From Actinomycetota bacterium (GTDB taxonomy: Bacteria > Actinomycetota > Actinomycetes > Actinomycetales > Microbacteriaceae), in assembly GCA_009923455.1 (NCBI GenBank), contig RFTL01000005.1, positions 1 through 46,590 of the forward strand: DNA of 46,590 nt, read 5' to 3'. Shown here piece by piece: positions 616 through 39,480 of this stretch. Under the pieces are notes generated by a model. The model was not told where the DNA came from, did not search any database, and was given only the letters and a program-made list of their open reading frames with translations. The number at the start of each line of letters is the position of its first letter. Position 1 is the first letter of the stretch. Position numbers and translations under genes: made by a program.

Positions 616-637
616 TGTATTTATTTTTTGTGTAATC
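616..637 (+). repeat. 16-bp box copy 1 (TGTATTTATTTTTTGT, here extended to TGTATTTATTTTTTGTGTAATC)
   Basis: exact repeat; same 22-mer at 1219-1240 and 2530-2551. Confidence 0.9.
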
Positions 638-663
638 TCTAAAAACTTTTTTGCCGAATCAAC

Positions 664-716
664 TTGCGTAAAATTCAAAGTCTGCTAAGCTGGTGGAACC
701 AGCCCAAGGTGGGCTG
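664..716 (+). promoter_or_regulatory. cassette 2 promoter TTGCGT/TGCTAAGCT plus three-arm inverted-repeat leader
   Basis: TAAGCT 686-691; AGCTGGT 688-694 / ACCAGCC 698-704 / GGGCTG 711-716. Confidence 0.65.
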
Positions 717-735
717 AAAGTCCAAGGGGGACAAA

Positions 736-1140
736 ATGACCAAGGCAGTTACCACAGCAACAAAGGGCAACCAGATTTTCTCGACCCTAGGTTACGGCAA
801 GACTCACGCCGTCATCGAGGCTGTTCGTGTTGCCAAGGTTCGCGCTGAGGCAGAGCGCGACTTGGCTGCTATTGAGCGCCTTGAGCTTAGGCTTCAGGGT
901 GACTACTACCAAAATCTTCCAGCTCAGGACTTTTCTTTGGTCTATGCGGAACTTTCTGCGTCTGCTCACGACCAAATCAAGCGCGGGAAGAAACTGCTCG
1001 CATCTATCGAGGGTATGGCTGACACCGACCTATTCTGGAGCGTTGCTTCTTGGCACGGAAGCTTCGAGAACGCTGAGCGTAAAGCTCGCCAAATCGGGCT
1101 TGGTCGTTCCCCATTCGTTGAGATTATCGAAGTGGACTAA
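736..1140 (+). CDS. hypothetical protein, 134 aa
   Basis: ORF with AAGGGGGACAAA upstream and cassette promoter at 683-691. Confidence 0.75.
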   Translation: MTKAVTTATKGNQIFSTLGYGKTHAVIEAVRVAKVRAEAERDLAAIERLELRLQGDYYQNLPAQDFSLVYAELSASAHDQIKRGKKLLASIEGMADTDLFWSVASWHGSFENAERKARQIGLGRSPFVEIIEVD

Positions 1141-1218
1141 TCAGCTCAGCTCAGCTCAGCTCAGCTTGCCGAGCAACTTTTTGTGCGGTTTGATTCAAAA
1201 ATTTTTGTCGCCTATGTG

Positions 1219-1240
1219 TGTATTTATTTTTTGTGTAATC
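1219..1240 (+). repeat. 16-bp box copy 2 (22-bp extended form)
   Basis: exact repeat. Confidence 0.9.
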
Positions 1241-1261
1241 CCTAAAAACTTCTTGGTTATT

Positions 1262-1303
1262 TTGCTTTTTGTCTGTGAAGTCTGCTAAGCTGGTCTTACC
1301 AGC
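1262..1303 (+). promoter_or_regulatory. cassette 3 promoter TTGCTT-18-TAAGCT plus inverted repeat
   Basis: TAAGCT 1286-1291; GCTGGT/ACCAGC. Confidence 0.6.
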
Positions 1304-1334
1304 CGAAAGGTTAGGTTCACGAAAAGGGGCAGAA

Positions 1335-1679
1335 ATGTCAGTAGCAGTTCAGCAGACCACCGAGGTCGCTAAGGGTTCAAAGCTAGTTGTTGAGCAGGTT
1401 CGTCAGCTAGTCGAAGTTCGTGCGGAGATTGCCCGCCTAGAGAAGTTGAAGGTGGCACTTACCGAAGAAGTCGAAAAGGCTTTTGGAGTGGACAAGACTT
1501 CCAAGACCTCTAAGGCAACCACGCTAACCCACAATGGTATCGAGTTCGCTCGCTACGATTGGAGAAGCCGTAAAGGGATTGACGAGGACAAGCTCGCCAA
1601 AGACTTCCCAGAAGCCTACGAAGCTTGCTTCAAGGCAGACAAGACAATCTTCGGTGTGATTGTGTCGCTGTTCAAGTAA
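1335..1679 (+). CDS. hypothetical small phage protein (coiled-coil N-terminus); start moved to internal ATG
   Basis: ATG 1335 preceded by GAAAAGGGGCAGAA and downstream of promoter 1286-1291; the ORF-track start 1269 lies upstream of the promoter. Confidence 0.7.
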   Translation: MSVAVQQTTEVAKGSKLVVEQVRQLVEVRAEIARLEKLKVALTEEVEKAFGVDKTSKTSKATTLTHNGIEFARYDWRSRKGIDEDKLAKDFPEAYEACFKADKTIFGVIVSLFK

Positions 1680-1693
1680 GCGGAAGCGAGAAG

Positions 1694-1717
1694 CCCCTAG
1701 CCAGAAATGGTTAGGGG
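1694..1717 (+). terminator. intrinsic terminator, cassette 3
   Basis: CCCCTAGCCagaaatGGTTAGGGG + TTTTTT. Confidence 0.75.
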
Positions 1718-1781
1718 TTTTTTCGTTTCGTGAAAAGTTTTTGAAACCGGTTTTTTCGCCGGCTATTTTTTGTTTGTCGGC

Positions 1782-1797
1782 TGTATTTATTTTTTGT
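1782..1797 (+). repeat. 16-bp box copy 3
   Basis: exact TGTATTTATTTTTTGT. Confidence 0.9.
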
Positions 1798-1827
1798 TTA
1801 TCTTCCGAGAAAAGTTTGCCGTTGGTG

Positions 1828-1879
1828 TTGAAATTGTCAGAGGGTTTTGCTAAGCTGGAAGTGTCCAGCAGGGAGCTGG
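1828..1879 (+). promoter_or_regulatory. cassette 4 promoter TTGAAA-17-TAAGCT plus three-arm leader
   Basis: TAAGCT 1851-1856; GCTGGA/TCCAGC/GCTGG. Confidence 0.65.
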
Positions 1880-1895
1880 GGAAAAGGGGTTTCAA

Positions 1896-2090
1896 ATGTT
1901 AGATGTAGTAGTCATTCAAGAAGCTACTTGGTTCGGTAAGACCACCAAGCTTGAATCCAAGGTTAGCCTGAGTGCCGAGAGCTTGGCACGCCACATTGAG
2001 TTCCTAAAGCTTTCAGTAGATGCCAAAGAGCTGAACTGGTTCATCGTCAATGATGCCGAGGGCAACCTGATAGACGCTTACAGGAGCTAG
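1896..2090 (+). CDS. hypothetical protein, 64 aa
   Basis: ORF after cassette promoter/leader 1851-1879 with GGGGAAAAGGGG SD; terminator 2105-2122 follows. Confidence 0.7.
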   Translation: MLDVVVIQEATWFGKTTKLESKVSLSAESLARHIEFLKLSVDAKELNWFIVNDAEGNLIDAYRS

Positions 2091-2104
2091 GAGTCAAAGA
2101 ATTG

Positions 2105-2122
2105 CCCTCCCTTCGGGGAGGG
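2105..2122 (+). terminator. intrinsic terminator, cassette 4
   Basis: CCCTCCcttcggGGAGGG + TTTATTTTTTT. Confidence 0.7.
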
Positions 2123-2157
2123 TTTATTTTTTTCTGCCGATTATCTCGATGAATACC

Positions 2158-2173
2158 TGTATTTATTTTTTGT
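2158..2173 (+). repeat. 16-bp box copy 4
   Basis: exact TGTATTTATTTTTTGT. Confidence 0.9.
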
Positions 2174-2203
2174 CTATCTTGCCGACACGATTCGCAAAAA
2201 GAT

Positions 2204-2255
2204 TTCGCATTTGTCGGAGTTTCGTGCTAAGCTGATTACATCAGCAGAAAGCTGA
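2204..2255 (+). promoter_or_regulatory. cassette 5 promoter plus three-arm leader
   Basis: TAAGCT 2228-2233; GCTGA/TCAGC/GCTGA. Confidence 0.6.
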
Positions 2256-2281
2256 GTAACTAAGAAAAGGGAGAAAAGAAG

Positions 2282-2452
2282 ATGGCAACCATCAGCACCG
2301 TTGAGCAGTGGGAAGCACTAGTAGGACGCCAGAGCAGGGAAGAATACATCGCTGTCCTAGAAGAAGAGCTTGAGCTATTCAAGTCGCTAGGAATGGAAAA
2401 GTCAGTAGCAGTTATCAGTGCCGTGCTTGAGAAGGAAAGAGCTTCTAACTAA
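2282..2452 (+). CDS. 56-aa hypothetical acidic protein (MATISTVEQWEALVGRQSREEYIAVLEEEL...), below ORF-track cutoff
   Basis: ATG 2282 after AAAAGGGAGAAAAGA; stop TAA 2450-2452; terminator 2467-2485 follows; cassette promoter 2228-2233. Confidence 0.7.
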   Translation: MATISTVEQWEALVGRQSREEYIAVLEEELELFKSLGMEKSVAVISAVLEKERASN

Positions 2453-2466
2453 GACACCAAGAAAAG

Positions 2467-2485
2467 CCCCCGCCAAGTGCGGGGG
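2467..2485 (+). terminator. intrinsic terminator, cassette 5
   Basis: CCCCCGCcaagtGCGGGGG + TTTTTT. Confidence 0.8.
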
Positions 2486-2529
2486 TTTTTTGCTTTGCCG
2501 AATTAGGCACAGATTTTTTGATTTCTTTG

Positions 2530-2551
2530 TGTATTTATTTTTTGTGTAATC
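2530..2551 (+). repeat. 16-bp box copy 5 (22-bp extended form)
   Basis: exact repeat. Confidence 0.9.
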
Positions 2552-2575
2552 TCCAACTACGAATCTGTGGGCTAC

Positions 2576-2631
2576 TTGACACTTGCCGTAACTTCCTGCT
2601 AAGCTAACTTTAGTTAGCCAAGGGGGCTGAC
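2576..2631 (+). promoter_or_regulatory. cassette 6 promoter TTGACA-18-TAAGCT plus three-arm leader
   Basis: TAAGCT 2600-2605; GCTAAC/GTTAGC/GCTGAC. Confidence 0.7.
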
Positions 2632-2646
2632 AAGAAGGGGGTCGAA

Positions 2647-2838
2647 ATGACCGAGAGCACCACCGCTTGGGACTTGTCCCAGCTTTCCGAGGAAGAGCTT
2701 TCCTCACTCATGAGCAATGTATGGGCATCGCTCAATCCCCGCCCAGTGGAGCTACTAGGGCTAGTCATCCAAGAGCGTGTCCGTAGACACGCCCTAGAGT
2801 GCCAGAACCTAGACTGCGGATTCTCCCCGCTCTACTGA
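2647..2838 (+). CDS. hypothetical protein, 63 aa
   Basis: ORF after cassette promoter 2600-2605; AAGGGGGTCGAA SD; terminator 2852-2869. Confidence 0.7.
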   Translation: MTESTTAWDLSQLSEEELSSLMSNVWASLNPRPVELLGLVIQERVRRHALECQNLDCGFSPLY

Positions 2839-2851
2839 GCAACCAAGATTG

Positions 2852-2869
2852 CCCCCGCTTCGGCGGGGG
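2852..2869 (+). terminator. intrinsic terminator, cassette 6
   Basis: CCCCCGCttcgGCGGGGG + TTTTTC. Confidence 0.8.
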
Positions 2870-2912
2870 TTTTTCTTTGCCGACACGCCCAAAAAAAATG
2901 TTGCCGATTGAC

Positions 2913-2964
2913 TTGACAATTCTTTGGTGTCCATGCTAAGCTGATTACATCAGCAAAGAGCTGA
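2913..2964 (+). promoter_or_regulatory. cassette 7 promoter TTGACA-18-TAAGCT plus three-arm leader
   Basis: TAAGCT 2937-2942; GCTGA/TCAGC/GCTGA. Confidence 0.7.
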
Positions 2965-2981
2965 AGAAAGAAAAGGGAAAA

Positions 2982-3215
2982 ATGAACACTTACAAACTAA
3001 CTTATGTTGTCAATGGAATCTTTGAATCCGAGACTATGGAGCGTTGGTTCTCAAGCAAGAGAGACGCTTACGCTTGGGCTAGTGACTACCTAGTGAGCGG
3101 ATACTACCCAGCTTCGATTGAGAAGTTCAAGGGTGAAGGCAACTACACCAATGGCAAGAGCGTGAGCTTTCCGATGTTGGCAGTAAAGCACTTCTTCAAG
3201 GGCGGTATGTTCTAA
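2982..3215 (+). CDS. hypothetical protein, 77 aa
   Basis: ORF after promoter TTGACA(2913)-18-TAAGCT(2937); terminator 3232-3253. Confidence 0.7.
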   Translation: MNTYKLTYVVNGIFESETMERWFSSKRDAYAWASDYLVSGYYPASIEKFKGEGNYTNGKSVSFPMLAVKHFFKGGMF

Positions 3216-3231
3216 GCCACCACGCACTAAA

Positions 3232-3253
3232 CCCTTCGCAATTCTGCGGGGGG
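3232..3253 (+). terminator. intrinsic terminator, cassette 7
   Basis: CCCTTCGCAattcTGCGGGGGG + TTTTTTG. Confidence 0.7.
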
Positions 3254-3293
3254 TTTTTTGTTTTTGCCGGTGATAATTTTTTTTCGGTTTTGG

Positions 3294-3309
3294 TGTATTT
3301 ATTTTTTGT
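3294..3309 (+). repeat. 16-bp box copy 6
   Basis: exact TGTATTTATTTTTTGT. Confidence 0.9.
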
Positions 3310-3339
3310 GTCCCGCCTAACTACCAGACCAGGGGCGAT

Positions 3340-3391
3340 TTGCTTTTTGCGGGGAATCCTGCTAGACTACTTATGTAGTCATTCCGACTAC
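3340..3391 (+). promoter_or_regulatory. cassette 8 promoter TTGCTT-17-TAGACT plus three-arm leader
   Basis: TAGACT 3363-3368; GACTAC/GTAGTC/GACTAC. Confidence 0.65.
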
Positions 3392-3418
3392 GACTTGGTA
3401 ACTAAATAGGGGATTCTC

Positions 3419-3754
3419 ATGGAGAACACAAACATGGTCGTTCAGACTTATCTACACCACACCTTCACTATCGGTGACGGGGACTTTACTGATGTTGTTT
3501 GTCAGGATTGTGCGGAGAAGTTTGCGAAGGAGCGGGGACTTGAATGGCGGGGCGGACACGCTTACGATTCATTCACCGAACCACTTGAAGGTTCTGATGC
3601 TCACGCTCAGGACGAACCGACTTGGGCATTAGGGGAAAGTGACTACCCCTACTCATGTTGCGGATACTACCTTCAAACTAACTTCACCCGTGAAGGGGAG
3701 CAGAACTTGAAGTCTGAGTATCCGAAGTGGGTTCAGGAGCTTTACCGCTACTGA
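3419..3754 (+). CDS. hypothetical Cys/His-containing protein, 111 aa
   Basis: ORF after cassette promoter 3363-3368; perfect-stem terminator 3765-3790. Confidence 0.7.
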   Translation: MENTNMVVQTYLHHTFTIGDGDFTDVVCQDCAEKFAKERGLEWRGGHAYDSFTEPLEGSDAHAQDEPTWALGESDYPYSCCGYYLQTNFTREGEQNLKSEYPKWVQELYRY

Positions 3755-3764
3755 TTCAGGATTG

Positions 3765-3790
3765 AACCCTTGGGCTAACCCCCAAGGGTT
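3765..3790 (+). terminator. intrinsic terminator, cassette 8
   Basis: AACCCTTGGG/CCCAAGGGTT perfect 10-bp stem + TTTT. Confidence 0.8.
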
Positions 3791-3823
3791 TTTTCTTACC
3801 CGAAAGTTTTTTGTGCGACACGC

Positions 3824-3879
3824 TTGACAAACTTTGCGGGGGCGTGCTAAGCTAGCTTCAGCTAGCCAAGGGGGCTAGC
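3824..3879 (+). promoter_or_regulatory. cassette 9 promoter TTGACA-18-TAAGCT plus three-arm leader
   Basis: TAAGCT 3848-3853; GCTAGC x3. Confidence 0.7.
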
Positions 3880-3901
3880 AAAAGAACTAAAGGGGTTCAA
3901 A

Positions 3902-4099
3902 ATGTTCGATGTTACTTTCACCACCGCCGACCTAGCTCAGCTCACTATTCCTCAGCTGGACGCCGTGCTTGACTACTGCGACCAGCTTGAATGGGAGCTG
4001 GGCATTGACTTGCGAGAGACTATCGCTGAAGTCAAGCTGGCTAAGGAGAACATCATGGAGCTGGCATGGAGCGACACCAGCTCAAGAATCTGGGCATAA
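3902..4099 (+). CDS. hypothetical protein, 65 aa
   Basis: ORF after promoter TTGACA(3824)-18-TAAGCT(3848); terminator 4113-4137. Confidence 0.7.
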   Translation: MFDVTFTTADLAQLTIPQLDAVLDYCDQLEWELGIDLRETIAEVKLAKENIMELAWSDTSSRIWA

Positions 4100-4112
4100 C
4101 CCGAACCGAAGC

Positions 4113-4137
4113 AACCCCGCCCCAAGTGGGCGGGGTT
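4113..4137 (+). terminator. intrinsic terminator, cassette 9
   Basis: AACCCCGCCC/GGGCGGGGTT + CTTTTTTG. Confidence 0.8.
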
Positions 4138-4170
4138 CTTTTTTGTCTGCGGGTTTTGTTGGAAGACTAT

Positions 4171-4186
4171 ACAAAAAATAAATACA
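4171..4186 (-). repeat. 16-bp box copy 7, inverted (ACAAAAAATAAATACA)
   Basis: exact reverse complement. Confidence 0.9.
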
Positions 4187-4223
4187 GATACCGAAAGAAC
4201 AAACACGCCGACAACTTCACTTG

Positions 4224-4282
4224 TTGCTTTTTGTCGGGGGTGTCTGTTATGCTGGCATAGCCAGCTCCAAGGGGGGGCTGGC
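4224..4282 (+). promoter_or_regulatory. cassette 10 promoter TTGCTT-18-TATGCT plus three-arm leader
   Basis: TATGCT 4248-4253; GCTGGC/GCCAGC/GCTGGC. Confidence 0.65.
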
Positions 4283-4296
4283 AGAAGGGTTACAAA

Positions 4297-4749
4297 ATGT
4301 TCCAGCCAGCCACCGAGCGTCAGATTTCTTACATCACCGCTCTACAGACCCGTGCGGGTATTCCTGCGGGTGTTCCTACTTCGCTTACCACTAGCGAAGC
4401 TTCAGCTCTAATCCAAAAGCTCAAGGGTGAAGTCACCCCCGTTGCTTTTACTACTCCAGCTCCGCTAGTTGCCGAAGGTGTTTACCGCCGTTCTGCCGAT
4501 GGTGCGATGTTCCGTGTCCAGACTTCCCGTGATTCTGGCAACCGCTACGCCAAGCTATTGCTAGTAGGTGGTGGTTGGGGTTACGAGAAGGGGGCTATCT
4601 ACACCCTAAAAGCCGATGAGCGACTAAGTGTCGCCGAGCTATCCGCTTGGGGGCTTACTACGGGTGTTTGTGCTATCTGCGGTAAGTTGCTATCCACCGC
4701 CGAAAGTGTGGCTAGGGGCATTGGTCCTGTATGTGCTAGCCGTTACTAA
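4297..4749 (+). CDS. zinc-ribbon protein resembling DUF6011 (CAICGKLLSTAESVARGIGPVCASRY)
   Basis: C-terminal CxxC...GIGPxC motif; ORF after cassette promoter 4248-4253. Confidence 0.75.
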   Translation: MFQPATERQISYITALQTRAGIPAGVPTSLTTSEASALIQKLKGEVTPVAFTTPAPLVAEGVYRRSADGAMFRVQTSRDSGNRYAKLLLVGGGWGYEKGAIYTLKADERLSVAELSAWGLTTGVCAICGKLLSTAESVARGIGPVCASRY

Positions 4750-4764
4750 TACGGCTAGCTCTAG

Positions 4765-4788
4765 CCCCCTAGGTGTTTGCCTAGGGGG
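4765..4788 (+). terminator. intrinsic terminator, cassette 10
   Basis: CCCCCTAGGtgtttgCCTAGGGGG; downstream TTTACCTTTTTT. Confidence 0.7.
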
Positions 4789-4799
4789 TTTACCTTTTT

Positions 4800-5500
4800 T
4801 GCGGTTGCGGTATCGCCCGACACTGACACTTAGCCAATGCGGGTAATACAGACACGGGCAATAACCCGCCAGCTAATTTTCGCCTTAGCCAGCGGGTTAG
4901 GTTAGTTGTTGTTCTTGTCTGCCCTAGGTGCTAGGGGTTGCCCGCCAGCGGGTATCTCTGGCTAGGTATGCCCTAGCTGAATCTATGCGGTAAGCCCTAA
5001 AACGCCCTAGAATCCGTTTTGACGGGTTTTAGGGTATTGCCTAGGTGATTACACCTAGAAACTACTATCACCCCGCCAGAACCCCCGCTGAAGCTTAGCT
5101 AGCTATCACTAGACCACTAGATAATTAGCTAGACCTAGAACCTAGACCTAAACCTAGACCTAACACTTAGACCCCCCCTATAGACCCCCTAGCCAAAGTT
5201 TCTACTCTTGATTAGTGTTTTACAAAAAATAAATACATAGAAATTTAATACTAGAAAAAAATTTCATACTTTTTAGTAAAGCCCCTCTTGACTTAGGAAA
5301 CAAATTGGACACAGGTCTCACATAACCGCTGCCCTCTCACCCGTCAAAAGCAGTTGACGTTAAGGTACTAAATCCGCCTCTCCGTACACCCCCCCTCCTC
5401 TTTCCAAAATTCCCCCTACCCCCCTTCTTTTTTCGCCCCTAAAAATTTGGAAAAAATTTTTAAAAAAATATTCGTCCCACTCTTACCCGATTTCATGCCC
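4800..5500. other. noncoding junction: CTAG-rich, then polypyrimidine and AT-rich tracts; possible genome end, origin or packaging region
   Basis: no credible ORF; dense CTAG/CCTAGA; CCCCCCCTCC and CCCCCTACCCCCC runs; TTGGAAAAAATTTTTAAAAAAATATT. Confidence 0.4.
5222..5237 (-). repeat. 16-bp box copy 8, inverted, inside the noncoding region
   Basis: exact reverse complement. Confidence 0.9.
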
Positions 5501-5513
5501 TAAAATAGAACCC

Positions 5514-6005
5514 ATGTCTCGACGATCAGCACGTGGACAGCAGCTTCCTCCCCAAGAGGTTGAGCTACTGAACACCCTCCAGGGAGAACAGCTCTATGAG
5601 CGCATCGCTGCGCTATACAACGCAGGCTGGCCGCTTCAGGCCATGGGAGATGCGCTCTCACCAAAGCACCCAAGATCTACCATCCGCGTTTGGGTTCAAC
5701 GCGCCAAGGGCCTCAACACAATAGACGCCCCTATTCCAACACCTAAAGCAGCCACCGCGCTGTCAAAGAAAGTGAAATCGAATTCTCCAGGGATCCCTCA
5801 GGACACCCTTGAGATTATCCAGGAACTCGCGCCACTAGCGCGGAGGTTCCGGAGCCGTATGGCAACCACGGCAGCACAGGCTGTGGCCAATGACCGTCTC
5901 ACAGGGATCTGCATCACCCTTTACCAGAGTGGCGTCTCCATCAAGGAGCTAGCTGAGGCGGCGGGAGTTACCTATCGAGCTATGTATAAGAGGATCAAAC
6001 TCTAG
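5514..6005 (+). CDS. phage helix-turn-helix protein with two HTH-like segments (possible small terminase or regulator)
   Basis: C-terminal VSIKELAEAAGVTYRAMYKRIKL HTH; -10-like TAAAAT 5501-5506 immediately upstream. Confidence 0.7.
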   Translation: MSRRSARGQQLPPQEVELLNTLQGEQLYERIAALYNAGWPLQAMGDALSPKHPRSTIRVWVQRAKGLNTIDAPIPTPKAATALSKKVKSNSPGIPQDTLEIIQELAPLARRFRSRMATTAAQAVANDRLTGICITLYQSGVSIKELAEAAGVTYRAMYKRIKL

Positions 6006-7584: not shown

Positions 7585-8178
7585 ATGACAAAAACAAGCG
7601 ACGAAAAGAAGTACATCAAGAAAAATCAGAAGCTCCCGGACGAAGTTAAGATCCAATTTGAGCTTTTTTCTAGCAACACCGAGCGCGATGGGCTAATTAA
7701 GCTCCTAGTTGACGCAAATTGGACCTACGAGGCAGTCTCGAATGCCTCTGGCCTGACTAGGGAGCGCGTTCGACAGATCGCAAACTCTTCTGCGTCTGCT
7801 GCATTAGCTGCAGAGTTGAACGTTGAGGTTCCAGAGCCACCTATCAAGGAGGCAAAGCCGGGTCCAACATATGTTGAGCCACATCCAGACACCTTAAAAC
7901 GACTACTAGAGCTTCAGCCGTACGCCCAGCAGGTTCGCTCTAACGGTAAGAAGTATCGTGAAGAGGCTGAAGAGTACACACGCCTCCTTAACCACGCCCA
8001 CGAAGTTGAGGGAGTTACCCTTTACCGCCTCGCGAAGCGCTTGGGGGTCACGCACGGTGCTCTACGCTTCCGCCTTGTACGCTACGGCTACAAGAAGCCA
8101 GTTACCGCAACGAGCAAGGTTTACCAGCCGATTTCTGAGAAGAACAGGTTGACTAACCACTGGCCAGAGGAAGAGTAG
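7585..8178 (+). CDS. HTH protein (sigma-region-4-like GLTRERVRQIA and C-terminal HTH), start moved to ATG 7585
   Basis: LTRERVRQIANSS; GVTLYRLAKRLGVTHGALRFRLVRYGY; same architecture as 5514-6005. Confidence 0.65.
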   Translation: MTKTSDEKKYIKKNQKLPDEVKIQFELFSSNTERDGLIKLLVDANWTYEAVSNASGLTRERVRQIANSSASAALAAELNVEVPEPPIKEAKPGPTYVEPHPDTLKRLLELQPYAQQVRSNGKKYREEAEEYTRLLNHAHEVEGVTLYRLAKRLGVTHGALRFRLVRYGYKKPVTATSKVYQPISEKNRLTNHWPEEE

Positions 8179-23797: not shown

Positions 23798-25813
23798 TTG
23801 AATAAGTCAGCGAAGCCGGGACCAGGAAGACCTCGCACTAGGCCGATTGACCCTAGCTGGAAGGGCTTGGCTCAAATCGAGACACGTGTCTTCAGCAGCG
23901 CTCCTGCAGACATTGATATAGATGCACTTAGTGAAAAACTAGATGCGGTTCGAGAAGCACGAAGCACCGAGGATGCCAAAGAATATGCAGCCGCTATAAA
24001 GGATCTGATTACGTTCCACTATGACAGCTTTAAAGCTGGCGAACGATACTCGACTCTAGAGTTTGACATAGCCTTCAAGAATGACGAGCTTCTTGCATCA
24101 GACCCTAGAGCCTTAGCACTTGTTCGAGGCGCTCTGCACAACAAAGAACGCACAGGGTCTGACGCCAGGTCACTGGCTGACGCGGTGGAAGCTGCAAAAT
24201 CTAACTTTAGGACAAATAGGGCAAATGTCAGCGCCCACCTCAATTCTCTCGGGGGGGACTGGACTACTAAGGGAGCAATAGAGCTAGCTGAGGAGCTAGA
24301 GGCGCAGTTTACTCAGGAGTTTGAGAGGCAAGGCGCTCACGCTGGAGAAGCTTCGTTTAGGGCAAAACGAAAAGTAATTCAAACCCTCAACGATATGAGT
24401 ACCGACCCTAAGAAGGCCTTCATACTTCTTACGTCCAAAGACCAAAATGCGTCTATAAAGCTATTCATGGATGGCGTCTCTGCCAAGATGACCCCCGTAA
24501 TTGACCCGTCAGAGCTAGTACTAATTCGAGACGGAATAAACGCGTCTAGGGCATATAGATTTAACAAAGAACCTATAACCGTGAATGTTATGTCCAATCA
24601 AACTGTTGGCGGTGTCCCTAACTCTGTAGCCGACGAACTTGAAGATGGCGACTTAGCATTTACATACTTTGGCGGTAATGGCGTCTACATTTATCCAGAG
24701 AAAGTAAAGAAGCTTTTGAAGGACGGTGTAGATGCTGACTGGTTCTCTACCGAAACCCTCGATGCTAGAGATCTATATAGGCACCTAATTGTTCACGAAA
24801 CTGCCCACTTGCAAATGTATCGACTCTGGGGTAATGACACAAACACCGGAACAAAGGCCTTAGAGCAGGACTTCATGACCTTTAAGGTTAAGAAGGATGG
24901 CACCAGCACTTATGGAAACGAAAGCGTTTCAGAAAGTTTTGCAGAGCAATACGCAAAATACCTCATTACTGGTAACGCTTCGCCAGAGTTCTTAGATCTT
25001 TTGTCGTCTAAGGGCCTCACAAAAGCTCAGTTGAATAAGAAGTGGAGAAGTGCATTCTCTAACCTACCAGACACTTTCTTTAAGTTCATTGATGGAATAT
25101 TCCAGGACGATCAGAATAACGTTACGCCAGAATTTAATGGCCCAGAGGCTAGCGAGTATAATCAAGGTAGAAAATACGGTGCAGCTCGAGTCCACAAACT
25201 AGGTAGAATTTTAGGATTTATTGGAAATAAGCCAGAGGCCGTACCGTCAGTTAAAAAAGACGAAAAAGTAGTTTATAGAGGTCTTAGGGGCGCTAGTGGT
25301 AAAACCTCTAGGCAGCTACATGGCGAGTTCGTGAACAGCGATATGCCATACGTAACTTATGGAATTTACGGCGACGGGGCTTACAGTTCAAAAATAAGAA
25401 GCGAAGCTGACGGATACGCAGACTGGTTCGGGCCAGTCACCATGCGCGTTAAGGATGACGCTAACATCTACATTGATCGCCCAGTCAGTGAATTTGGGTT
25501 TAATGTAGCTCAGAAGAATAAAAACTTTAACTTACGACAACTCCACAAGGATATGTTTAAAGCTGGTGGAATTTTAGAGGATATAGTCTTAAATGAAATT
25601 GATCCAGATGCCACCCCTAGTGAGCTAAGTACCGCAAAGAGGTTGTTAGCGCTAAAGCTAGGAATTACTGGAGATTACGAAAACGATAGAACAATCTTAG
25701 CTGGTATGTTAGGATTCCAAGGCGTGGAAGTTTCTGGCAACCAACAAGCCAGTTATGCTATTATTCTCGATAGGAGCATGATGCAAATAGAAGTTCCAGC
25801 AGGAGGATTTTAG
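23798..25813 (+). CDS. HExxH zinc metallopeptidase-like + ADP-ribosyltransferase-like protein; probably translated as frameshift extension of 20256-23690 (frame open from 23633)
   Basis: LIVHETAHLQMYRLWG...SESFAEQYAKYL; KVVYRGLRG...TYGIYGDGAYSSKIRSEADGYADWFG; listed start is TTG without convincing SD. Confidence 0.65.
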   Translation: MNKSAKPGPGRPRTRPIDPSWKGLAQIETRVFSSAPADIDIDALSEKLDAVREARSTEDAKEYAAAIKDLITFHYDSFKAGERYSTLEFDIAFKNDELLASDPRALALVRGALHNKERTGSDARSLADAVEAAKSNFRTNRANVSAHLNSLGGDWTTKGAIELAEELEAQFTQEFERQGAHAGEASFRAKRKVIQTLNDMSTDPKKAFILLTSKDQNASIKLFMDGVSAKMTPVIDPSELVLIRDGINASRAYRFNKEPITVNVMSNQTVGGVPNSVADELEDGDLAFTYFGGNGVYIYPEKVKKLLKDGVDADWFSTETLDARDLYRHLIVHETAHLQMYRLWGNDTNTGTKALEQDFMTFKVKKDGTSTYGNESVSESFAEQYAKYLITGNASPEFLDLLSSKGLTKAQLNKKWRSAFSNLPDTFFKFIDGIFQDDQNNVTPEFNGPEASEYNQGRKYGAARVHKLGRILGFIGNKPEAVPSVKKDEKVVYRGLRGASGKTSRQLHGEFVNSDMPYVTYGIYGDGAYSSKIRSEADGYADWFGPVTMRVKDDANIYIDRPVSEFGFNVAQKNKNFNLRQLHKDMFKAGGILEDIVLNEIDPDATPSELSTAKRLLALKLGITGDYENDRTILAGMLGFQGVEVSGNQQASYAIILDRSMMQIEVPAGGF

Positions 25814-25821
25814 AGGCGGCT

Positions 25822-26124
25822 ATGGAAATTAAAAACGGTAGAGACAAAGTAGCGTACTACTGCAGCTACTTCAATAACCTCCAAGGTGTAGCGGAAGAAG
25901 AAGATTACTACAGCTCTAATGGCACATCTTATGACCCTGAAGCTGTCAATGACTATGATTCATACCTACAATATAGGTCACTACTTTCTAAAGAAATGAT
26001 TGATATTGTTCGTTCGGGAGAAGACATTGTTGAGTCCAAATTTTCCAATGAACTCAAAGGCCTAATCCAGAGAGTTAGAGATAAAGCTCCAAAAGAGTTT
26101 CTAGAGGAGTTTCCAAATGGATAA
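25822..26124 (+). CDS. small acidic hypothetical protein
   Basis: ORF directly downstream of protease/ART gene. Confidence 0.6.
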   Translation: MEIKNGRDKVAYYCSYFNNLQGVAEEEDYYSSNGTSYDPEAVNDYDSYLQYRSLLSKEMIDIVRSGEDIVESKFSNELKGLIQRVRDKAPKEFLEEFPNG

Positions 26125-26305
26125 GCCAGAGCGCGATTTCAACACTAAAGTTGTATACTACTTAGAAGACTTTTCGGGCAAAAAACCGCCCAAAAAGGTA
26201 GAAGTTGATTTAACTAAACTCCCTGGTGAAGAGCTAGATCAGCTACTCTTCCACGTCCCAGAGGCTACCTCAGAAATCGTTTACCGTGAATTATACGGTG
26301 AATAG
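26117..26305 (+). CDS. small hypothetical protein, 62 aa
   Basis: overlaps upstream ORF by 8 nt. Confidence 0.6.
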   Translation: MDKPERDFNTKVVYYLEDFSGKKPPKKVEVDLTKLPGEELDQLLFHVPEATSEIVYRELYGE

Positions 26306-26382
26306 AATAACAACATAAGAAATCAGTGTAAAATAGACATTAGCCAATCGCTGGTCTATTATTCCCGGTTAGAGAGTTATAA

Positions 26383-26754
26383 ATGGCAAAAAGCAGCATC
26401 ATTGATGTCTGGTTCTACGTGAACCCGGAAACTGAAGCAATTGATCAAGTGATCTGCTGGTTCCCTCTAGGCATGTCCGTTCGTGAAGGCAGCGACTGGG
26501 TTATTTCAAGCAAAGAAGAAGCTCAGACTGACGAAAAAGCTACCACCCACGACGTCTATCAGCTCGACTGGGATACCGATCCTTTGACCATTGACGACGA
26601 CTTCGATTTTGACGACCCTGATAACGAGCACATCGCTATAAAGATGTTTGACAATGGCGAACTTACCTTGGAGAAACTGGAAGAGTACTCCGACAAAATT
26701 CTAAGTCCGGTAAAAGACAATCCGGAATACGCAGATCTAGAGGTCGAGGACTAA
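26383..26754 (+). CDS. acidic hypothetical protein, 123 aa
   Basis: ORF; TGTAAAAT motif at 26327. Confidence 0.65.
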   Translation: MAKSSIIDVWFYVNPETEAIDQVICWFPLGMSVREGSDWVISSKEEAQTDEKATTHDVYQLDWDTDPLTIDDDFDFDDPDNEHIAIKMFDNGELTLEKLEEYSDKILSPVKDNPEYADLEVED

Positions 26755-26755
26755 A

Positions 26756-28849
26756 GTGCTCAATTTTGTTGGGGCAAACGACGAGCTGGCATTCTTTGAG
26801 AAGAATGGCAAGCATGTTGCTGTTTATATTGAAACGAATCTAGTTGCAGATCTGAGCACCTATGACATGCTTAAGGCTCTTGAAACTCTTCCGGATCGCC
26901 CGACAAAGCAGGTATTCTCTAACGCAACAATAGACATTGCAAATGCTGCTTTAACTTCACTAGACCCGGTTGTGGCTTCAGCGGATCGAATGTATACCAT
27001 TCCAGATGGTGTCGTTGCCGAGGCAAAGAAGGCACTGGAATGGCGTAAAGAACATAAGCGTGGTGGCACCCCTGTTGGTCTCAACACTGCTAGAACCCTA
27101 GCAAAAGGTGGGCAAATTGGCATCCGCAAGGTTCGCCACATTGCTAAGTACTTCCCTCGTCACGAAGTTGACAAAAAGGGTAAGGGTTGGAAGCCAGGTG
27201 AAGATAAATTCCCATCTAACGGCCGTATCGCTTGGGCGCTCTGGGGTGGAGACGCAGCATGGCGTTGGTCACGTGCGATTGTTGAGCGAGAGGATAAAAA
27301 AGCTCGAACCGCTAGTGGTTACGCATTCTCAGGGTATGAAGATGACCTAGAGACCTATGGTTACGATGGCTATGATGCAGACATCAACCCATTCAAGCTT
27401 GCACACGAGCTAGACCTTAATGTTGGTCCAGAGTTTATGGCCCGTGTTCTTATGGACGGATCAGGCATTGATCGACTATACAAGATCGAAATCGATGGAA
27501 CTGTTTCAGTGTGGGACGACTGCGGATGGGATGACCTGGGAACAGTCGATGGAGACGTGTACTCGTACGACGAGGCCCTTGATGGCCCCAACAACATAGC
27601 TGCATACGACTACGTAATTATTGACCCATCTTCTGCAGTAATTATTTCTGCATTTTTGCAGGAGCGCCCATTCCAGCCAGTTCTACTAAGCGAAATTGAT
27701 CCTGAAGAGACTGCTCTGATGGCAGAAGGCTTAGTAGAAGAAGACTTCACACTTATCGACCGAGTATTGACTGCTGCTGGTCAGGTAGATGCTCCGAGTA
27801 ATCAGGATGGTAACTACACACCTGAGGAAAGATCTGCCCTGGCTCAGAATCAGGTTAGAGATGCGTCGGGTAAGTTCGCAAAGGCAGGCACCAGTGTTGT
27901 TATTGCTGGAGACTACTCGCGCGGTAAGGGCGAAATTGTCAAGGTTAACTCTAAGGATGGCACTGTAGACGTTCGTCTCTTGAATGGGGAGATGGTTACA
28001 GTTCCTGGAAACCAGACTGAAGCGTTAGATGGATCTCAGGAAGGTCAATACATCTCCGAAGGTACACCTTTCAGGGAGCCTTTGAATCTTTCCGGCATCC
28101 TGGGAGAACCTAGAACCCCTCACGACCAACCTAAGGCTATTCTGCCTGGCACGATGAAGCCGCTATCTAACCGCGAGCTAAAAAATATGATGAACTCTGG
28201 TTGGAACAGCTGGGTAGCTGAGCAGAGGAAGAGCTTCAATAAGTCTGGCGCAACTGTAACTGCAGCAGCTAAAGAGCCTATTCAGACTCCAAAAACTTCA
28301 GATATCAAGCCTAAGTATCTAGCAATTGTATCCCCTGATGATCCTGCAGCAGTAATGGATGTAGTTGCGCTAGTCCCGAAGAGCCCTACTACAACCACGC
28401 CTGTACTGTATGAGCGAAAAGAAGGCAAGTGGGCAAGAAACGACCAAATCCTTGCCGATCTAAAGTCATTTAGCCCTCCTCCAGTAGTGGAATTAGACGA
28501 CCAAGAGGTGCTTAACGACGTACTTAAGCAAACAGATCAAGCTTCTCCAAGCGTACAAGCTTCCGCATATGACTTCTCCATCCTCTGGGAAAAGCGAATT
28601 GAACCAATTCTTGCTGCAGGTGGCCTTGACCGCAACCGGGGTAATGCGGAGAAGTTACGCCGTTACTGGGTGCGTGGCGAAGGTGCCGCTAAAATCCGCT
28701 GGGGCCAGCCTGGCGACTGGAAGCGCTGCGTTAAGTATCTATCAAAGCACCTTGGTCCTCGTGCCAAGGGCTACTGCCAGCTTCGTCACAAGGAAGCCCT
28801 AGGCTACTACACCTCTACACATGCTAAGAAAGAGCGCGCTAATGGCTAA
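26756..28849 (+). CDS. head-associated multidomain protein (GTG start), contains PRHEVDKKGKGW...NGRIAWALWGGD domain and LDRNRGNAEKLRRYW domain
   Basis: shares domain with next gene; between portal and capsid. Confidence 0.7.
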   Translation: MLNFVGANDELAFFEKNGKHVAVYIETNLVADLSTYDMLKALETLPDRPTKQVFSNATIDIANAALTSLDPVVASADRMYTIPDGVVAEAKKALEWRKEHKRGGTPVGLNTARTLAKGGQIGIRKVRHIAKYFPRHEVDKKGKGWKPGEDKFPSNGRIAWALWGGDAAWRWSRAIVEREDKKARTASGYAFSGYEDDLETYGYDGYDADINPFKLAHELDLNVGPEFMARVLMDGSGIDRLYKIEIDGTVSVWDDCGWDDLGTVDGDVYSYDEALDGPNNIAAYDYVIIDPSSAVIISAFLQERPFQPVLLSEIDPEETALMAEGLVEEDFTLIDRVLTAAGQVDAPSNQDGNYTPEERSALAQNQVRDASGKFAKAGTSVVIAGDYSRGKGEIVKVNSKDGTVDVRLLNGEMVTVPGNQTEALDGSQEGQYISEGTPFREPLNLSGILGEPRTPHDQPKAILPGTMKPLSNRELKNMMNSGWNSWVAEQRKSFNKSGATVTAAAKEPIQTPKTSDIKPKYLAIVSPDDPAAVMDVVALVPKSPTTTTPVLYERKEGKWARNDQILADLKSFSPPPVVELDDQEVLNDVLKQTDQASPSVQASAYDFSILWEKRIEPILAAGGLDRNRGNAEKLRRYWVRGEGAAKIRWGQPGDWKRCVKYLSKHLGPRAKGYCQLRHKEALGYYTSTHAKKERANG

Positions 28850-31800
28850 TGAAGAGTTTCTAATGGAAGAAGTGTGGGGTGAGAACATTGGAGCCCCTAC
28901 AGAGGTTACTGATGAGGATATGCTCATGCCAATCGAGGATATCGTCTCAGAATCTGACGACATCTACGACGACGCTTTTGAAGTAGATAGCGAAATCGCT
29001 TATGCCCTAGAGGAACTAGCAGCATGCGACGATGACGAGTTTGCCGCACTAATTGCCGCTGGTGGCCTTGATCGTAACCGCGGAAATGCAGAAAAACTTC
29101 GCCGCTACTGGACTACAGGTAAGGGCGCAGCCAAGATCCGCTGGGGCACTCCTGGAGACTGGACTCGCTGTGTTCGTCAGCTATCAAAGTACATGGGACC
29201 TCGCGCAAAAGGCTACTGCCAGCTTCGCCACAAGGATGCTACTGGTATCTACACTGGAAGCAAGCTAAATCCTGGCAAAAAGAGGGGCAGGATTGCATCT
29301 GCTCCAATGTTTGCATCTGAGCAGGCTTTCAACGAATCCATCATCGAGAAGTCTAGATTAGCTGCCTTGGCTGCTGATGCCAGAGAAAAAGTAGGTCTAA
29401 TGGCTTCTGCTATGCCTAATCGTGTTGGATCTAAGTTCTTTATTCCTATGCTTGTTCCTGAAGAAGTAGAGTCTGGAGACGGTAGAAAGTTTAAGGCTGG
29501 CGCAATTAGCATCAGAGATCTACCGGTTCCACTGCTATGGCAGATTAAGACTGGTTCTGGCCACGACGGTTCTGTTGTAGTTGGCCGCATTGACTACATC
29601 GAGCGTATCGAAGGCGGCATGGGCAATGCTTATGGCGTATTTGACAGCGGACCCTACGGCCGTGAGGCTGAGCGTCTAGTTAAAAACGGCTTCCTGCGTG
29701 GAGTTTCTGTTGATCTCGACCAGTTTGAAGCCAAGGAAGAGAAAAAGCCAAAAGAAGAAATGTCTGAGGGTGATGGCGACTCTATCGGTAAGGATAAGTT
29801 GACCATCAATAAGGCTCGCATTATGGCTGCTACAATTGTAGCTAAGCCTGCATTCCAAGAATGCTCTATCGAACTGTCAAATGAAGGGGACCAGGAGGAA
29901 GCCATGAACTATGAAGATGGCGTCTATGAAGAGTCCATGCAGGACTTTGTCGATCTCGAACCACTAGCGGCTTCTGGCTTCTTGAAGTCTGACATCCCTA
30001 TGACTCCGCCTGCTGACTGGTTTAAAGACCCAGGGCTGACTAAGCCAACACCACTAACCGTGGACGACAATGGTCGCATCTATGGCCACATTGCTGCGTG
30101 GCACGTAAACCACATCGGGTTACCGCGCGCAACCAAGCCACCTCGCTCTCGTAGCAAGTATGCCTATTTCCACACTGGCGTTCTACGCACAGATGCAGGT
30201 ACCGATGTGCCTGTAGGTCAGCTAACTCTTGCTGGTGGCCACGCTCCTCTAAATGCTGACGCTGCTTCTGCTGCTAAGCACTACGATGACACCGCTTCTG
30301 CTGTTGCAGACATCCACGTTGGTGAAGATCAGTATGGCATCTGGTGCGCTGGATCGCTACGTCCAAACCTAGACGAGATGCAGATCCGTGCACTACGCGC
30401 TTCTGCCCCTTCAGGTGACTGGCGTCCAATCAATGGCTCTCTCGAGCTAGTTGCTATCTGCCAGGTAAATGTTCCTGGATTCCCAACTGCCCGTGCAATG
30501 ATTGCATCTGGCAAGGTTTTGGCTCTAGTTGCTGCTGGAGCAAGCTACATGGCTGCTATGAAGTGCTCTGGTGCAGCGTGTTCTTTGAATACAAAGGCCG
30601 AACTGCTCGGTCAGCTTGCTGCTAGTGCTCCAGACCTAAAGAAGCGTGTCAGGGAAGCAAAGAAAGTTCTAAGAGCATCTAACCTTCAGGCTCTAACTGC
30701 TAGTGCAGCAGACATGAGAGAGAAGGCACTAACTGCTGCTGCTGTTGCAGAGCTAGCTAAGATCTCCGAGAAAGAGCGTATGAAGCTAGCTGATGAGGGC
30801 AAGGCGCTACCAGATGGTGCATACCCTATCCGCAACGTTGAGGACCTAAAGAATGCCATTCAGGCATACGGAAGGGCCAAGTCCTCCGAGCGTCGTATGG
30901 TACGCAAGCACATCATCAAGCGTGCTCGCCAACTCAACCAGGCTGACCTAATTCCTCAACACTGGCTACATGCTGACTCTATGGAAGCGGCTGAAAAAGT
31001 TGCAGCAATGCGTGCCGCTGTAACTGCTGCCGCCACTGGTGAATTCAGAGACTATTCGGAAGAAACTCGCGCTAAGTATGCCAAAGAAGGTATTGCTCTT
31101 CCAGATGGATCTTTCCCGATTGAGAATGAGGAAGACCTAAAGCGTGCAATTAAGGCTCACGGTCGTGCAAAAGACATTGAAGCTGCTAAGAAGCACATCA
31201 TCAAACGAGCAAATGCACTTGGCAGAAAAGACATGATTCCAACAGAGTGGTCAGCAGAGACTGCAGCTGCCTATGTTGACGAGGCGGTGGTGGCTGCTAG
31301 CCCAAAAGAAGAAGAGATCTCTGATTCCGAGCTAAAGAAGCTCAGGGATGCTAAGGCAGAAGCTGACAAGCAAACCGAAGAAGAGATCAAAGCAGCTGAA
31401 GAAGTAAAGGCTAACCGAGGAGACCTACCAGAACGCGACGAAGAAGGTCGCATGAAGTATGTTTCTGGCGTGAACCAGCCTCGTGACGCAAAGGGCAAGT
31501 ACCGCAAGGTTCTAGCTCGCCTAAAGCAAGATCTCGGAGTTGCTGGTCTATCTCGCGCACTGCAGAAGGTCGAAGAGGCTGAGAACCTAGACTTTGCTGG
31601 CGACTACGCTGCCTCTGCTGGGGCCAGCTCTGAGCTATTAGACATGATTGACCGACTAGACTCTGGCGCTCTTAATGCTAGAGCACTAGAAAACGTCCGC
31701 ACAACCGCGGCCGAACTAGGCAAGACAATTGCCAACCTTCCACTGCCATTCGGCAAGGAAGCTCAGAAAGTTAGATTTAGCGATCTACCTGCTGGACTCA

Positions 31801-31964
31801 AGGATCTCATTGAAGCAATGATTACTCGAGTCGAGTCAAAGATCGGTAAAAAGGACGCGGATGTTGCTACGCAAGACCTGCGCTCCTATATGGCTGGAGC
31901 AGATGTCTACTCTCAGGGTGAAGTTCAGTCCCAGATGAGTAAGCTCCTCCGACTCCTTACCTAA
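28842..31964 (+). CDS. prohead (capsid maturation) protease in a large polyprotein with duplicated C-terminal domains; start moved to ATG 28842
   Basis: MANEEFLMEE at overlapping ATG; protease-like region VVGRIDYIER...AERLVKNGFLRGVSVDLDQFE...ARIMAATIVAKPAFQECSIEL. Confidence 0.75.
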   Translation: MANEEFLMEEVWGENIGAPTEVTDEDMLMPIEDIVSESDDIYDDAFEVDSEIAYALEELAACDDDEFAALIAAGGLDRNRGNAEKLRRYWTTGKGAAKIRWGTPGDWTRCVRQLSKYMGPRAKGYCQLRHKDATGIYTGSKLNPGKKRGRIASAPMFASEQAFNESIIEKSRLAALAADAREKVGLMASAMPNRVGSKFFIPMLVPEEVESGDGRKFKAGAISIRDLPVPLLWQIKTGSGHDGSVVVGRIDYIERIEGGMGNAYGVFDSGPYGREAERLVKNGFLRGVSVDLDQFEAKEEKKPKEEMSEGDGDSIGKDKLTINKARIMAATIVAKPAFQECSIELSNEGDQEEAMNYEDGVYEESMQDFVDLEPLAASGFLKSDIPMTPPADWFKDPGLTKPTPLTVDDNGRIYGHIAAWHVNHIGLPRATKPPRSRSKYAYFHTGVLRTDAGTDVPVGQLTLAGGHAPLNADAASAAKHYDDTASAVADIHVGEDQYGIWCAGSLRPNLDEMQIRALRASAPSGDWRPINGSLELVAICQVNVPGFPTARAMIASGKVLALVAAGASYMAAMKCSGAACSLNTKAELLGQLAASAPDLKKRVREAKKVLRASNLQALTASAADMREKALTAAAVAELAKISEKERMKLADEGKALPDGAYPIRNVEDLKNAIQAYGRAKSSERRMVRKHIIKRARQLNQADLIPQHWLHADSMEAAEKVAAMRAAVTAAATGEFRDYSEETRAKYAKEGIALPDGSFPIENEEDLKRAIKAHGRAKDIEAAKKHIIKRANALGRKDMIPTEWSAETAAAYVDEAVVAASPKEEEISDSELKKLRDAKAEADKQTEEEIKAAEEVKANRGDLPERDEEGRMKYVSGVNQPRDAKGKYRKVLARLKQDLGVAGLSRALQKVEEAENLDFAGDYAASAGASSELLDMIDRLDSGALNARALENVRTTAAELGKTIANLPLPFGKEAQKVRFSDLPAGLKDLIEAMITRVESKIGKKDADVATQDLRSYMAGADVYSQGEVQSQMSKLLRLLT

Positions 31965-31971
31965 AAAGTAA

Positions 31972-31979
31972 GGTAAAAT
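31972..31979 (+). promoter_or_regulatory. GGTAAAAT -10-like motif upstream of capsid gene
   Basis: octamer identical to those at 11473, 38719 and 43440. Confidence 0.45.
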
Positions 31980-32081
31980 TATCCGTAGGTGGAGCGCCTC
32001 ACGTTTTTATGCGGTGAGTCCCTCAACCTTGACTGTAAATATAGGACAAATTGTCCAATACTAACTGGCCTAGGAGGTACA

Positions 32082-34166: not shown

Positions 34167-34180
34167 ACCAAAACTAAATA

Positions 34181-34219
34181 GGGTGGCTCCCCGGTCTTCG
34201 GGCCGGGGGGCTCCCACCC
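34181..34219 (+). terminator. strong hairpin after capsid gene
   Basis: GGGTGG...CCCACCC and CCCCGGtcttcgggCCGGGG, no long U tract. Confidence 0.5.
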
Positions 34220-34246
34220 CCTAAAACTTTTAAGTAAGGATTTTAA

Positions 34247-35122
34247 ATGGCTTTCCCAAATAATGGCGTAGTAGAGGCACCTCAGATTGTGCCCTCCGCT
34301 TTTGGTCTACTTGCTGTAGTCAAGCCAGAAAACTCGGCGGAAGAAGACCGCTGGATTAGAGGATTCTCCCAGGAATGGGAAACAGAGGTAAGCAACCTCG
34401 TAAACTGGGACGACACCGACACTACTGTAGACGTATACGCTGAGCGGGTCAACCCAGTCCGTCACGTAAAGATTAAGCCATTCTTCATCGAAGCAACCGA
34501 AGACATCTCTACCTTTGGATTCCTAGGTTTGGATAGAATTGCTCGAATTACCCGTCAGATTGAAGCTGGCTCTCAGAAGGCCATCGAGCGCGAACTTTGG
34601 GATGGCGTAGTTCGTAAGGGTGAGTCTCACGAGAACGCGGCTCTTTCTAGCGCAACTGTAACCATTCTTGGCGGTGGAACTGCTTATTCTGCTAAGCGCG
34701 CTCTAGCTCTACTCGAGCAGGGTATTGCAGAAGCCTCTCAGTTTGGCGAGCAGGGCCTAATCCACATGACTCGTGATGTAGCTGCCTTGTTATCTAGCAA
34801 CAGCCAGATGCTTTTCCACAATAAGGTCAAGGACCACTTACAGACTATGGGCGGAACCCCAGTTGTTGTCGGAAACGGCTACTCTGGTAATGGCCCAGAC
34901 GGTGACACTCACGCGGAAGCGTCAGCCACCAACAAATGGATGTACGCCACCGGCACTGTCAGGGTATACCTTGGCGATGTCGATGTCGTAAACGACAACC
35001 TAGCCCAGGGCTACGATGTGTCGGGCAACGCAAATGACATGAGACTCAAAGCAATCCGCCCAGCTGCGGTTTACTTTGACACATCCATCCACCTAGCTGT
35101 TCGAGTAGATCTAACAGCTTAA
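34247..35122 (+). CDS. head protein (possible second capsid/pentamer or minor capsid protein)
   Basis: position between MCP and tail protein; abundant-protein-like ORF of 291 aa. Confidence 0.5.
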   Translation: MAFPNNGVVEAPQIVPSAFGLLAVVKPENSAEEDRWIRGFSQEWETEVSNLVNWDDTDTTVDVYAERVNPVRHVKIKPFFIEATEDISTFGFLGLDRIARITRQIEAGSQKAIERELWDGVVRKGESHENAALSSATVTILGGGTAYSAKRALALLEQGIAEASQFGEQGLIHMTRDVAALLSSNSQMLFHNKVKDHLQTMGGTPVVVGNGYSGNGPDGDTHAEASATNKWMYATGTVRVYLGDVDVVNDNLAQGYDVSGNANDMRLKAIRPAAVYFDTSIHLAVRVDLTA

Positions 35123-35147
35123 ATCAAGAAATAAGGAGAATAGCTAA

Positions 35148-36269: not shown

Positions 36270-36280
36270 TAACTAGAAAT

Positions 36281-36323
36281 AACGGGTGGTGGCTTGAGCA
36301 ATTAGCTTAGGCTACCACCCGTT
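36281..36323 (+). terminator. strong hairpin after major tail gene
   Basis: AACGGGTGGT/ACCACCCGTT perfect 10-bp stem, no U tract. Confidence 0.45.
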
Positions 36324-36345
36324 AAACTTATAAAGAGGTAAAAAC

Positions 36346-37458: not shown

Positions 37459-37471
37459 GAAAGAAGAGAAT

Positions 37472-37648: not shown

Positions 37649-37651
37649 TCC

Positions 37652-38161: not shown

Positions 38162-38162
38162 A

Positions 38163-38711: not shown

Positions 38712-38718
38712 ATCTTAC

Positions 38719-38751
38719 GGTAAAATTATTAAGTAGTCCACATATAGGACT
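38719..38751 (+). promoter_or_regulatory. GGTAAAAT motif followed by inverted repeat AGTCC-acatata-GGACT
   Basis: third copy of octamer; IR 38735-38751. Confidence 0.4.
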
Positions 38752-38782
38752 GCAACCACTAAGAGACATAGGAATAATTGAC

Positions 38783-39477: not shown

Positions 39478-39480
39478 CAC

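Follow-up and report, generated by a model that had tools for sequence, protein, structure and literature searches.

Why does a freshwater actinobacterial phage carry the same 16-bp word, letter for letter, in front of one small gene after another? The sequence in question is contig RFTL01000005.1, which was analyzed over its whole length of 46,590 bases (hereafter the window) and belongs to a 1.64-Mb metagenome-assembled genome. The first 4.7 kb of the window hold an array of small-gene units, most of which have their own promoter and terminator, and the word, called the box below, recurs in the spaces between genes. As judged from sequence, the box is a real, conserved, and phase-locked regulatory element. 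Exact conservation, a position upstream of promoters, helical phasing, association with non-consensus -35 elements, concerted change within each genome, and the lack of such a box-plus-promoter in host-family genomes are all shown by the sequences. Its role is probably that of a binding site for a transcription activator, sequence-specific and linked to the phage, that would serve the small-gene array in a class I manner.

Eight boxes in the small-gene array

A preliminary description of this DNA had listed eight exact, intergenic copies of the box, two of them inverted, and a scan of the window returned the same set. The best further match has 3 mismatches; dinucleotide shuffles of the window give a chance expectation of 0.41 matches at 3 or fewer mismatches, and the largest count in any shuffle was 2. 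The boxes lie more than 90 nucleotides (nt) 5' of start codons. The boxes, each an exact 16-mer, and the array promoters, written as -35 hexamer, spacer length, and -10 hexamer, are as follows.

616..631, forward strand: box of unit 2, gap of 54 nt to the -10
664..691, forward strand: called promoter of unit 2, TTGCGT-16-TAAGCT
1219..1234, forward strand: box of unit 3, gap of 51 nt to the -10
1262..1291, forward strand: called promoter of unit 3, TTGCTT-18-TAAGCT
1782..1797, forward strand: box of unit 4, gap of 53 nt to the -10
1828..1856, forward strand: called promoter of unit 4, TTGAAA-17-TAAGCT
2158..2173, forward strand: box of unit 5, gap of 54 nt to the -10
2204..2233, forward strand: called promoter of unit 5, TTCGCA-18-TAAGCT
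2530..2545, forward strand: box of unit 6, gap of 54 nt to the -10
2576..2605, forward strand: promoter of unit 6, TTGACA-18-TAAGCT, with both a box and a consensus -35
2913..2942, forward strand: promoter of unit 7, TTGACA-18-TAAGCT, without a box
3294..3309, forward strand: box of unit 8, gap of 53 nt to the -10
3340..3368, forward strand: called promoter of unit 8, TTGCTT-17-TAGACT
3824..3853, forward strand: promoter of unit 9, TTGACA-18-TAAGCT, without a box
4171..4186, reverse strand: inverted box before unit 10, 61 nt to the -10
4224..4253, forward strand: called promoter of unit 10, TTGCTT-18-TATGCT
5222..5237, reverse strand: terminal inverted box, in noncoding DNA that separates the array from the late genes

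Recomputing the gaps from box end to -10 before units 2, 3, 4, 5, 6, and 8 gave the values first reported, all of which fall within 51 to 54 nt. The earlier -35 assignments were likewise recovered, with TTGACA but no box at units 7 and 9, both at unit 6, and poor -35 elements at the other boxed units; in the window alone, TTGACA is present in 2 of 2 box-less promoters and in 1 of 7 boxed ones. As a separate observation, a T-run lies about 11 to 17 nt upstream of each forward box, at a near-constant position, in the window and in four related phage contigs (G001, G005, G048, and G049). In the window, it is not obviously a terminator tail.

Spacing to the -10 and strength of the -35

The arrangement of box and promoter was followed through related phage contigs, in which -10 elements were called by a position-weight matrix lacking a distance term and separately by a generic sigma-70 model. 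Across 90 boxed promoters from seven phages, most gaps to the predicted -10 lie between 41 and 64 nt and fall mainly into classes of 41 to 44, 51 to 54, and 61 to 64 nt (about 42, 53, and 63), which are steps of one helical turn. The near-fixed distance of the preliminary description therefore holds for the window, which displays the 53-nt class alone before the six units with a forward box, while in the relatives it becomes a series. With near-duplicates removed and both callers agreeing (n=69), the vector strength at 10.5 bp was R=0.74 (p=6e-17), and 17 of the 21 gaps outside the central peak were in phase (p=5e-8); under a shuffled-sequence null, the in-phase fraction never exceeded 0.41. 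In a second set, comprising 76 promoters of five additional phages with the -10 called by expectation-maximization, R was 0.54 (p=3e-10) and 16 of 31 off-center gaps were in phase (p=6e-4). If the -10 hexamer is taken as -12 to -7, box centers fall at about -62.5, -73.5, and -83.5. The box lies upstream of the -35 without overlap, more than 10 bp away in the 42-nt class and about 30 bp away in the main class.

The phasing bears on an alternative that the box acts in RNA, either as a 3'-processing site, as the preliminary description itself had raised, or as an element associated with the terminator of the gene upstream. The box does follow closely on the upstream terminator, with a T-run about 10 nt ahead of it. 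However, that T-run is often distinct from the terminator U-tract in the window, and such an element accounts poorly for inverted copies or for phasing to a downstream promoter, making this explanation highly improbable.

Boxed promoters also differ from their box-less neighbors in the -35 element. A TTGAC -35 is present in 11 of 12 box-less array promoters versus 23 of 90 boxed ones (Fisher p=1.5e-5), whereas -10 scores do not differ between the two groups (p=0.11). The second set is similar, with TTGAC in 13 of 76 boxed promoters, and three internal inverted boxes likewise precede weak -35 elements. The weak promoters have a further mark, a spacer word [AT]TGTC (often ATGTCAGAGG) just after the -35, which is found in 31 of 58 boxed promoters with a weak -35 versus 1 of 32 TTGAC promoters, and which stands at the spacer start in units 3, 4, and 5 of the window and in relatives. 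Second words between box and -35 (ACTTYNNAYGA, ACACGCC) do occur, but they are not positioned.

These features are consistent with an activator that would occupy the box at about -62, -73, or -83, a distance of four, five, or six helical turns from the downstream -10. From there, on the face of the helix shared with host RNA polymerase, it would recruit the enzyme in class I style. The simplest contact would be with the alpha C-terminal domain (alpha-CTD), and recruitment would allow promoters with poor -35 elements to be used. The effect would presumably be activation, with a phage-encoded activator and an array made up of early genes.

Phasing would also be expected if the box were the operator of a repressor or silencer working at a distance, by looping or cooperatively along the array, for example to turn small genes off after early infection. 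Repeated asymmetric phage sites are known as repressor sites in the cluster A stoperators (PMC9283540), looping needs helical phasing as well, and a terminal inverted box could serve as a loop anchor. However, boxes this far upstream of the -35 do not cover the promoter, most units have a single site, and an association with weak -35 elements is expected under activation rather than repression. It is this last point that tips the balance toward an activator, and a repressor at the box is unlikely.

The cassette promoters, boxed or not, carry an inverted repeat that begins within the -10 and extends into the start region (e.g., TAAGCTGGTGGAACCAGC), seen at 10 sites in the window:

20-60, 686-710, 1286-1310, 1851-1880, 2228-2250, 2600-2625, 2937-2960, 3363-3385, 3848-3870, and 4248-4270: inverted repeats at the -10

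The arms vary among units yet remain complementary, and perfect arms of at least 6 bp are present in 31 of the 92 cassette promoters, whereas a null of swapped arms predicts 1.8. A third complementary copy of the arm often follows in the leader. In the box-less promoter of an array gene of about 610 amino acids (near 62.3 kb in G001; also in G005 and G022), the -35 lies within an inverted-repeat arm, and both arms differ together in G005.

Related phages, box variants, and candidate binding proteins

The window contig encodes terminase, portal, capsid, tail, and tape measure proteins. Among deposited sequences, its capsid has the nearest match in DSL-LC01, an uncultured Actinomycetia phage (68.5% identity), followed by Microbacterium phages such as Pumpernickel. 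The phage is incomplete because the contig end falls within a gene. A BLASTN search with the first 8 kb of the window against cultured phages gave no match, and Rfam and tRNA searches gave no hits. The noncoding stretch at 4750-5513, which is shared with G043 near the equivalent position, includes CCCTCTCACCCGTCAAAAGCAGT and directly precedes a gene for a helix-turn-helix (HTH) protein described below; it is a possible packaging or terminus region.

The motif scan of relatives proposed in the preliminary description showed that at least 12 related phage contigs have conserved the box, with 7 to 38 copies in each where the array is mostly covered. The identical box is present in G001 (154 kb, 16 exact copies), G005 (152 kb, 14 exact copies plus variants), G048, and G049. 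Other phages have variant forms. G021 has a one-base variant, a CT end replacing GT, in every array copy, and de novo word counting returned GTATCCACTTTTTTAC in G022 and GTATCCACTTTTTGA, a fourth variant, in G043. G016 and G059 have GTATCCACTTTTTGA or a form ending in AC, G051 has 19 copies of RTAGTTATTTTTTCT, G054 has GTATTCATTTTTTCT, and G055 and G058 are also boxed, the latter with about 38 copies. All variants, among them ...TTTTTTCT, GTATCCACTTTTTTA, GTATCCACTTTTTGA, and RTAGTTATTTTTTCT, share a frame of approximately RTA[TG][TC][TC]A[TC]TTTTT. Copies within a single genome mostly vary in concert, which is what a co-evolving binder would produce. Boxes are essentially limited to the array, and in six phages 72 are forward and 8 inverted.

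Conservation of this kind also informs whether the box might be an UP element, in which the alpha-CTD of host RNA polymerase would bind an A/T-rich word directly, without a dedicated regulator. The A/T-rich box resembles a distal UP subsite, alpha-CTD contacts are phased to the helix, and weak -35 elements would be helped in this case too. However, UP elements are sequence-tolerant, not normally letter-exact, and lie at -40 to -60, whereas the box is near-invariant over 16 bp in more than 70 copies, including its G and TGT ends, and is centered mostly near -73. Variants with conserved C residues (GTATCCACTTTTT) are, moreover, maintained within each genome. An UP element is slightly less likely than the repressor.

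No comparable repeated box was found in the more distant relatives DSL-LC01, Pumpernickel, G031, G036, G038, and G041, nor in G052 and its near-identical relatives G047 and G053, despite retention of part of the array gene set in this group. G043, G009, and G047 were not used as box-less controls, as G043 is boxed and the contigs of G009 and G047 stop before the array. DSL-LC01 has a different promoter code, with 16 copies of CTAAAGATGTTAT at 24,793-43,303 running into the -10 of small-gene promoters. On the host side, the box-plus-promoter is confined to this contig among 199 genomes covering the genus, family, and order, which argues against a host regulon; with 2 mismatches allowed, the 1.64-Mb genome itself holds a single other box site.

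One box in G054, at 11,094, is of the B type amid boxes of the E type, and its cassette closely matches one of G022, so that the cassette seems to have moved together with its own box. Such travel is what might be seen if the box were mainly a DNA-structural, replication, packaging, or recombination site (a cassette boundary) that falls between units by chance, and the terminal inverted copies, in noncoding DNA beside late genes, would suit this as well. However, a site of this type has no need of a fixed helical phase to the downstream -10, and it leaves the link to -35 strength unexplained. We consider it improbable.

If the box is bound by an activator, the question becomes which protein binds it. 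The preliminary description had named two candidates:

5514-6005 and 7585-8178: a pair of dual-HTH paralogs, conserved across the whole phage group

Both are also present in box-less relatives, and the proposal that the box is an activator site offsetting weak -35 elements, with helical phase mattering, is supported by the quantized spacing and by the tendency of box-less promoters to have consensus -35 elements but not in its choice of binders. Two other proteins were considered and set aside. A ClgR-like XRE protein of the array also occurs in box-less relatives, and its recognition helix does not follow the box; the tandem-HTH protein G001_57935 has no homologue in the boxed G022.

The lead candidate is a gene for a MerR/Xis/BldC-like winged helix-turn-helix (wHTH) protein of 78 to 87 residues, located about 4 to 8 kb upstream of the array in a region absent from the window contig. 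It was found in 8 of 8 boxed phages having the upstream region covered, is present in three long boxed genomes (at 53,907-54,170 in G001), and was not found in DSL-LC01, G031, G038, G036, or the available part of G041. As a query, it led to four new phages, of which G051, G054, and G055 have a box array about 5 to 6 kb downstream and the fourth, G052, has none. G016 and G058, boxed phages found independently of this query, also encode it. The AlphaFold model has a wHTH fold (pLDDT, the predicted local distance difference test, 87). Foldseek neighbors include RacA, phage Xis, and BldC, all of them weak (E > 0.04), and Pfam HTH hits are below cutoff. The connection between this protein and the box is one of genomic linkage and is possibly mere synteny.

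Several points weigh against an activator box, or against this candidate as its binder. The -10 sites are predictions, the in-phase windows were picked after inspecting the first data set, and relatedness among the phages means that the counts are not independent samples. Phasing is noisier in the second set, where just 12 of 31 off-center gaps are in phase by the generic caller (p=0.04). The TTGAC association weakens to p=0.026 without G022, the source of most box-less units, and some boxed promoters, unit 6 among them, do have TTGACA. The last box is inverted and in noncoding DNA in the window, G001, G005, G049, and G021, and no convincing promoter was seen on either side of it in these five; the last inverted box of G048 precedes a promoter, like the internal inverted box at 4171. 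Finally, the G052 group has the wHTH gene yet no box, and the small proteins G001_66390 (Cys-rich) and G001_65041 follow the box as well or better.

A bolder proposal, which we advance only tentatively and regard as doubtful, is that a phage-encoded small wHTH activator and the box are a co-evolving pair driving arrays of single-gene modules across an actinobacterial phage lineage, in which the box changes concertedly, spacing changes only in whole turns, and the array is a natural class I spacing series. If true, dozens of uncharacterized small phage genes would be governed by a compact regulatory code in which any gene behind a box is a regulon member. The 42/53/63-nt series would show, as a natural experiment, the upstream distances over which an activator can still work, and the per-genome variants would lead directly to the binder and to shifts in its specificity. 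A repeated short word with a phased downstream promoter would also make a practical promoter finder for actinobacterial phages from metagenomes, a group in which regulation has gone largely unstudied.

Comparison with known systems

Activator boxes and repeated phage motifs are of a known kind; a narrow literature search found no description of this box, its spacing series, or its concerted variants. The cluster A stoperators (L5, TipsytheTRex) are also short asymmetric words in many copies, mostly co-oriented with transcription, but they are 13 bp long, genome-wide (within operons as well as at the repressed promoter), and bound by a two-domain immunity repressor, halting initiation and elongation (PMC9283540). 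No such repressor was identified in the window, which holds part of the phage genome. Unlike these, the box is limited to the array, upstream of promoters, phased to the -10, and tied to weak -35 elements. The 18-bp repeat of Microbacterium cluster EC (PMC7302621) and the start-associated sequences of EF and cluster K (PMC3203893) are likewise repeated, asymmetric, intergenic motifs of actinobacteriophages. However, they are found at the start codon or 21 to 30 bp before it, at the ribosome-binding site or immediately ahead of it, whereas the box is more than 50 nt upstream of the -10 in the window. The 17-bp repeat of cluster O also occurs in many near-exact copies (more than 30 per genome in Corndog), but it is dyad-symmetric and genome-wide, with a third of copies well inside genes, and the available part of that account describes no promoter phasing (PMC4351075).

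The candidate protein, as a single wHTH of 78 to 87 residues, is like regulators of the BldC and Xis type, although in sequence and fold it resembles BldC, Xis, and RacA weakly and its binding to the box is putative. The sites of BldC are asymmetric, AT-containing direct repeats, to which the protein binds head to tail (PMC5859096); no AATT-type direct repeat was seen in the box by eye.

The closest parallel is with class I sites such as those of E. coli CRP at lac-type promoters, which are active near -61.5, -71.5, and -82.5 with a 10.5-bp periodicity and help weak promoters (PMC6301791). The box differs in being 16 bp and asymmetric rather than a 22-bp CRP site, and in belonging to an actinobacterial phage. 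It is nonetheless a single site upstream of the -35, with centers near -62, -73, and -83 that fall within about 2 bp of the active CRP positions and share their periodicity, and its target promoters have suboptimal core elements.

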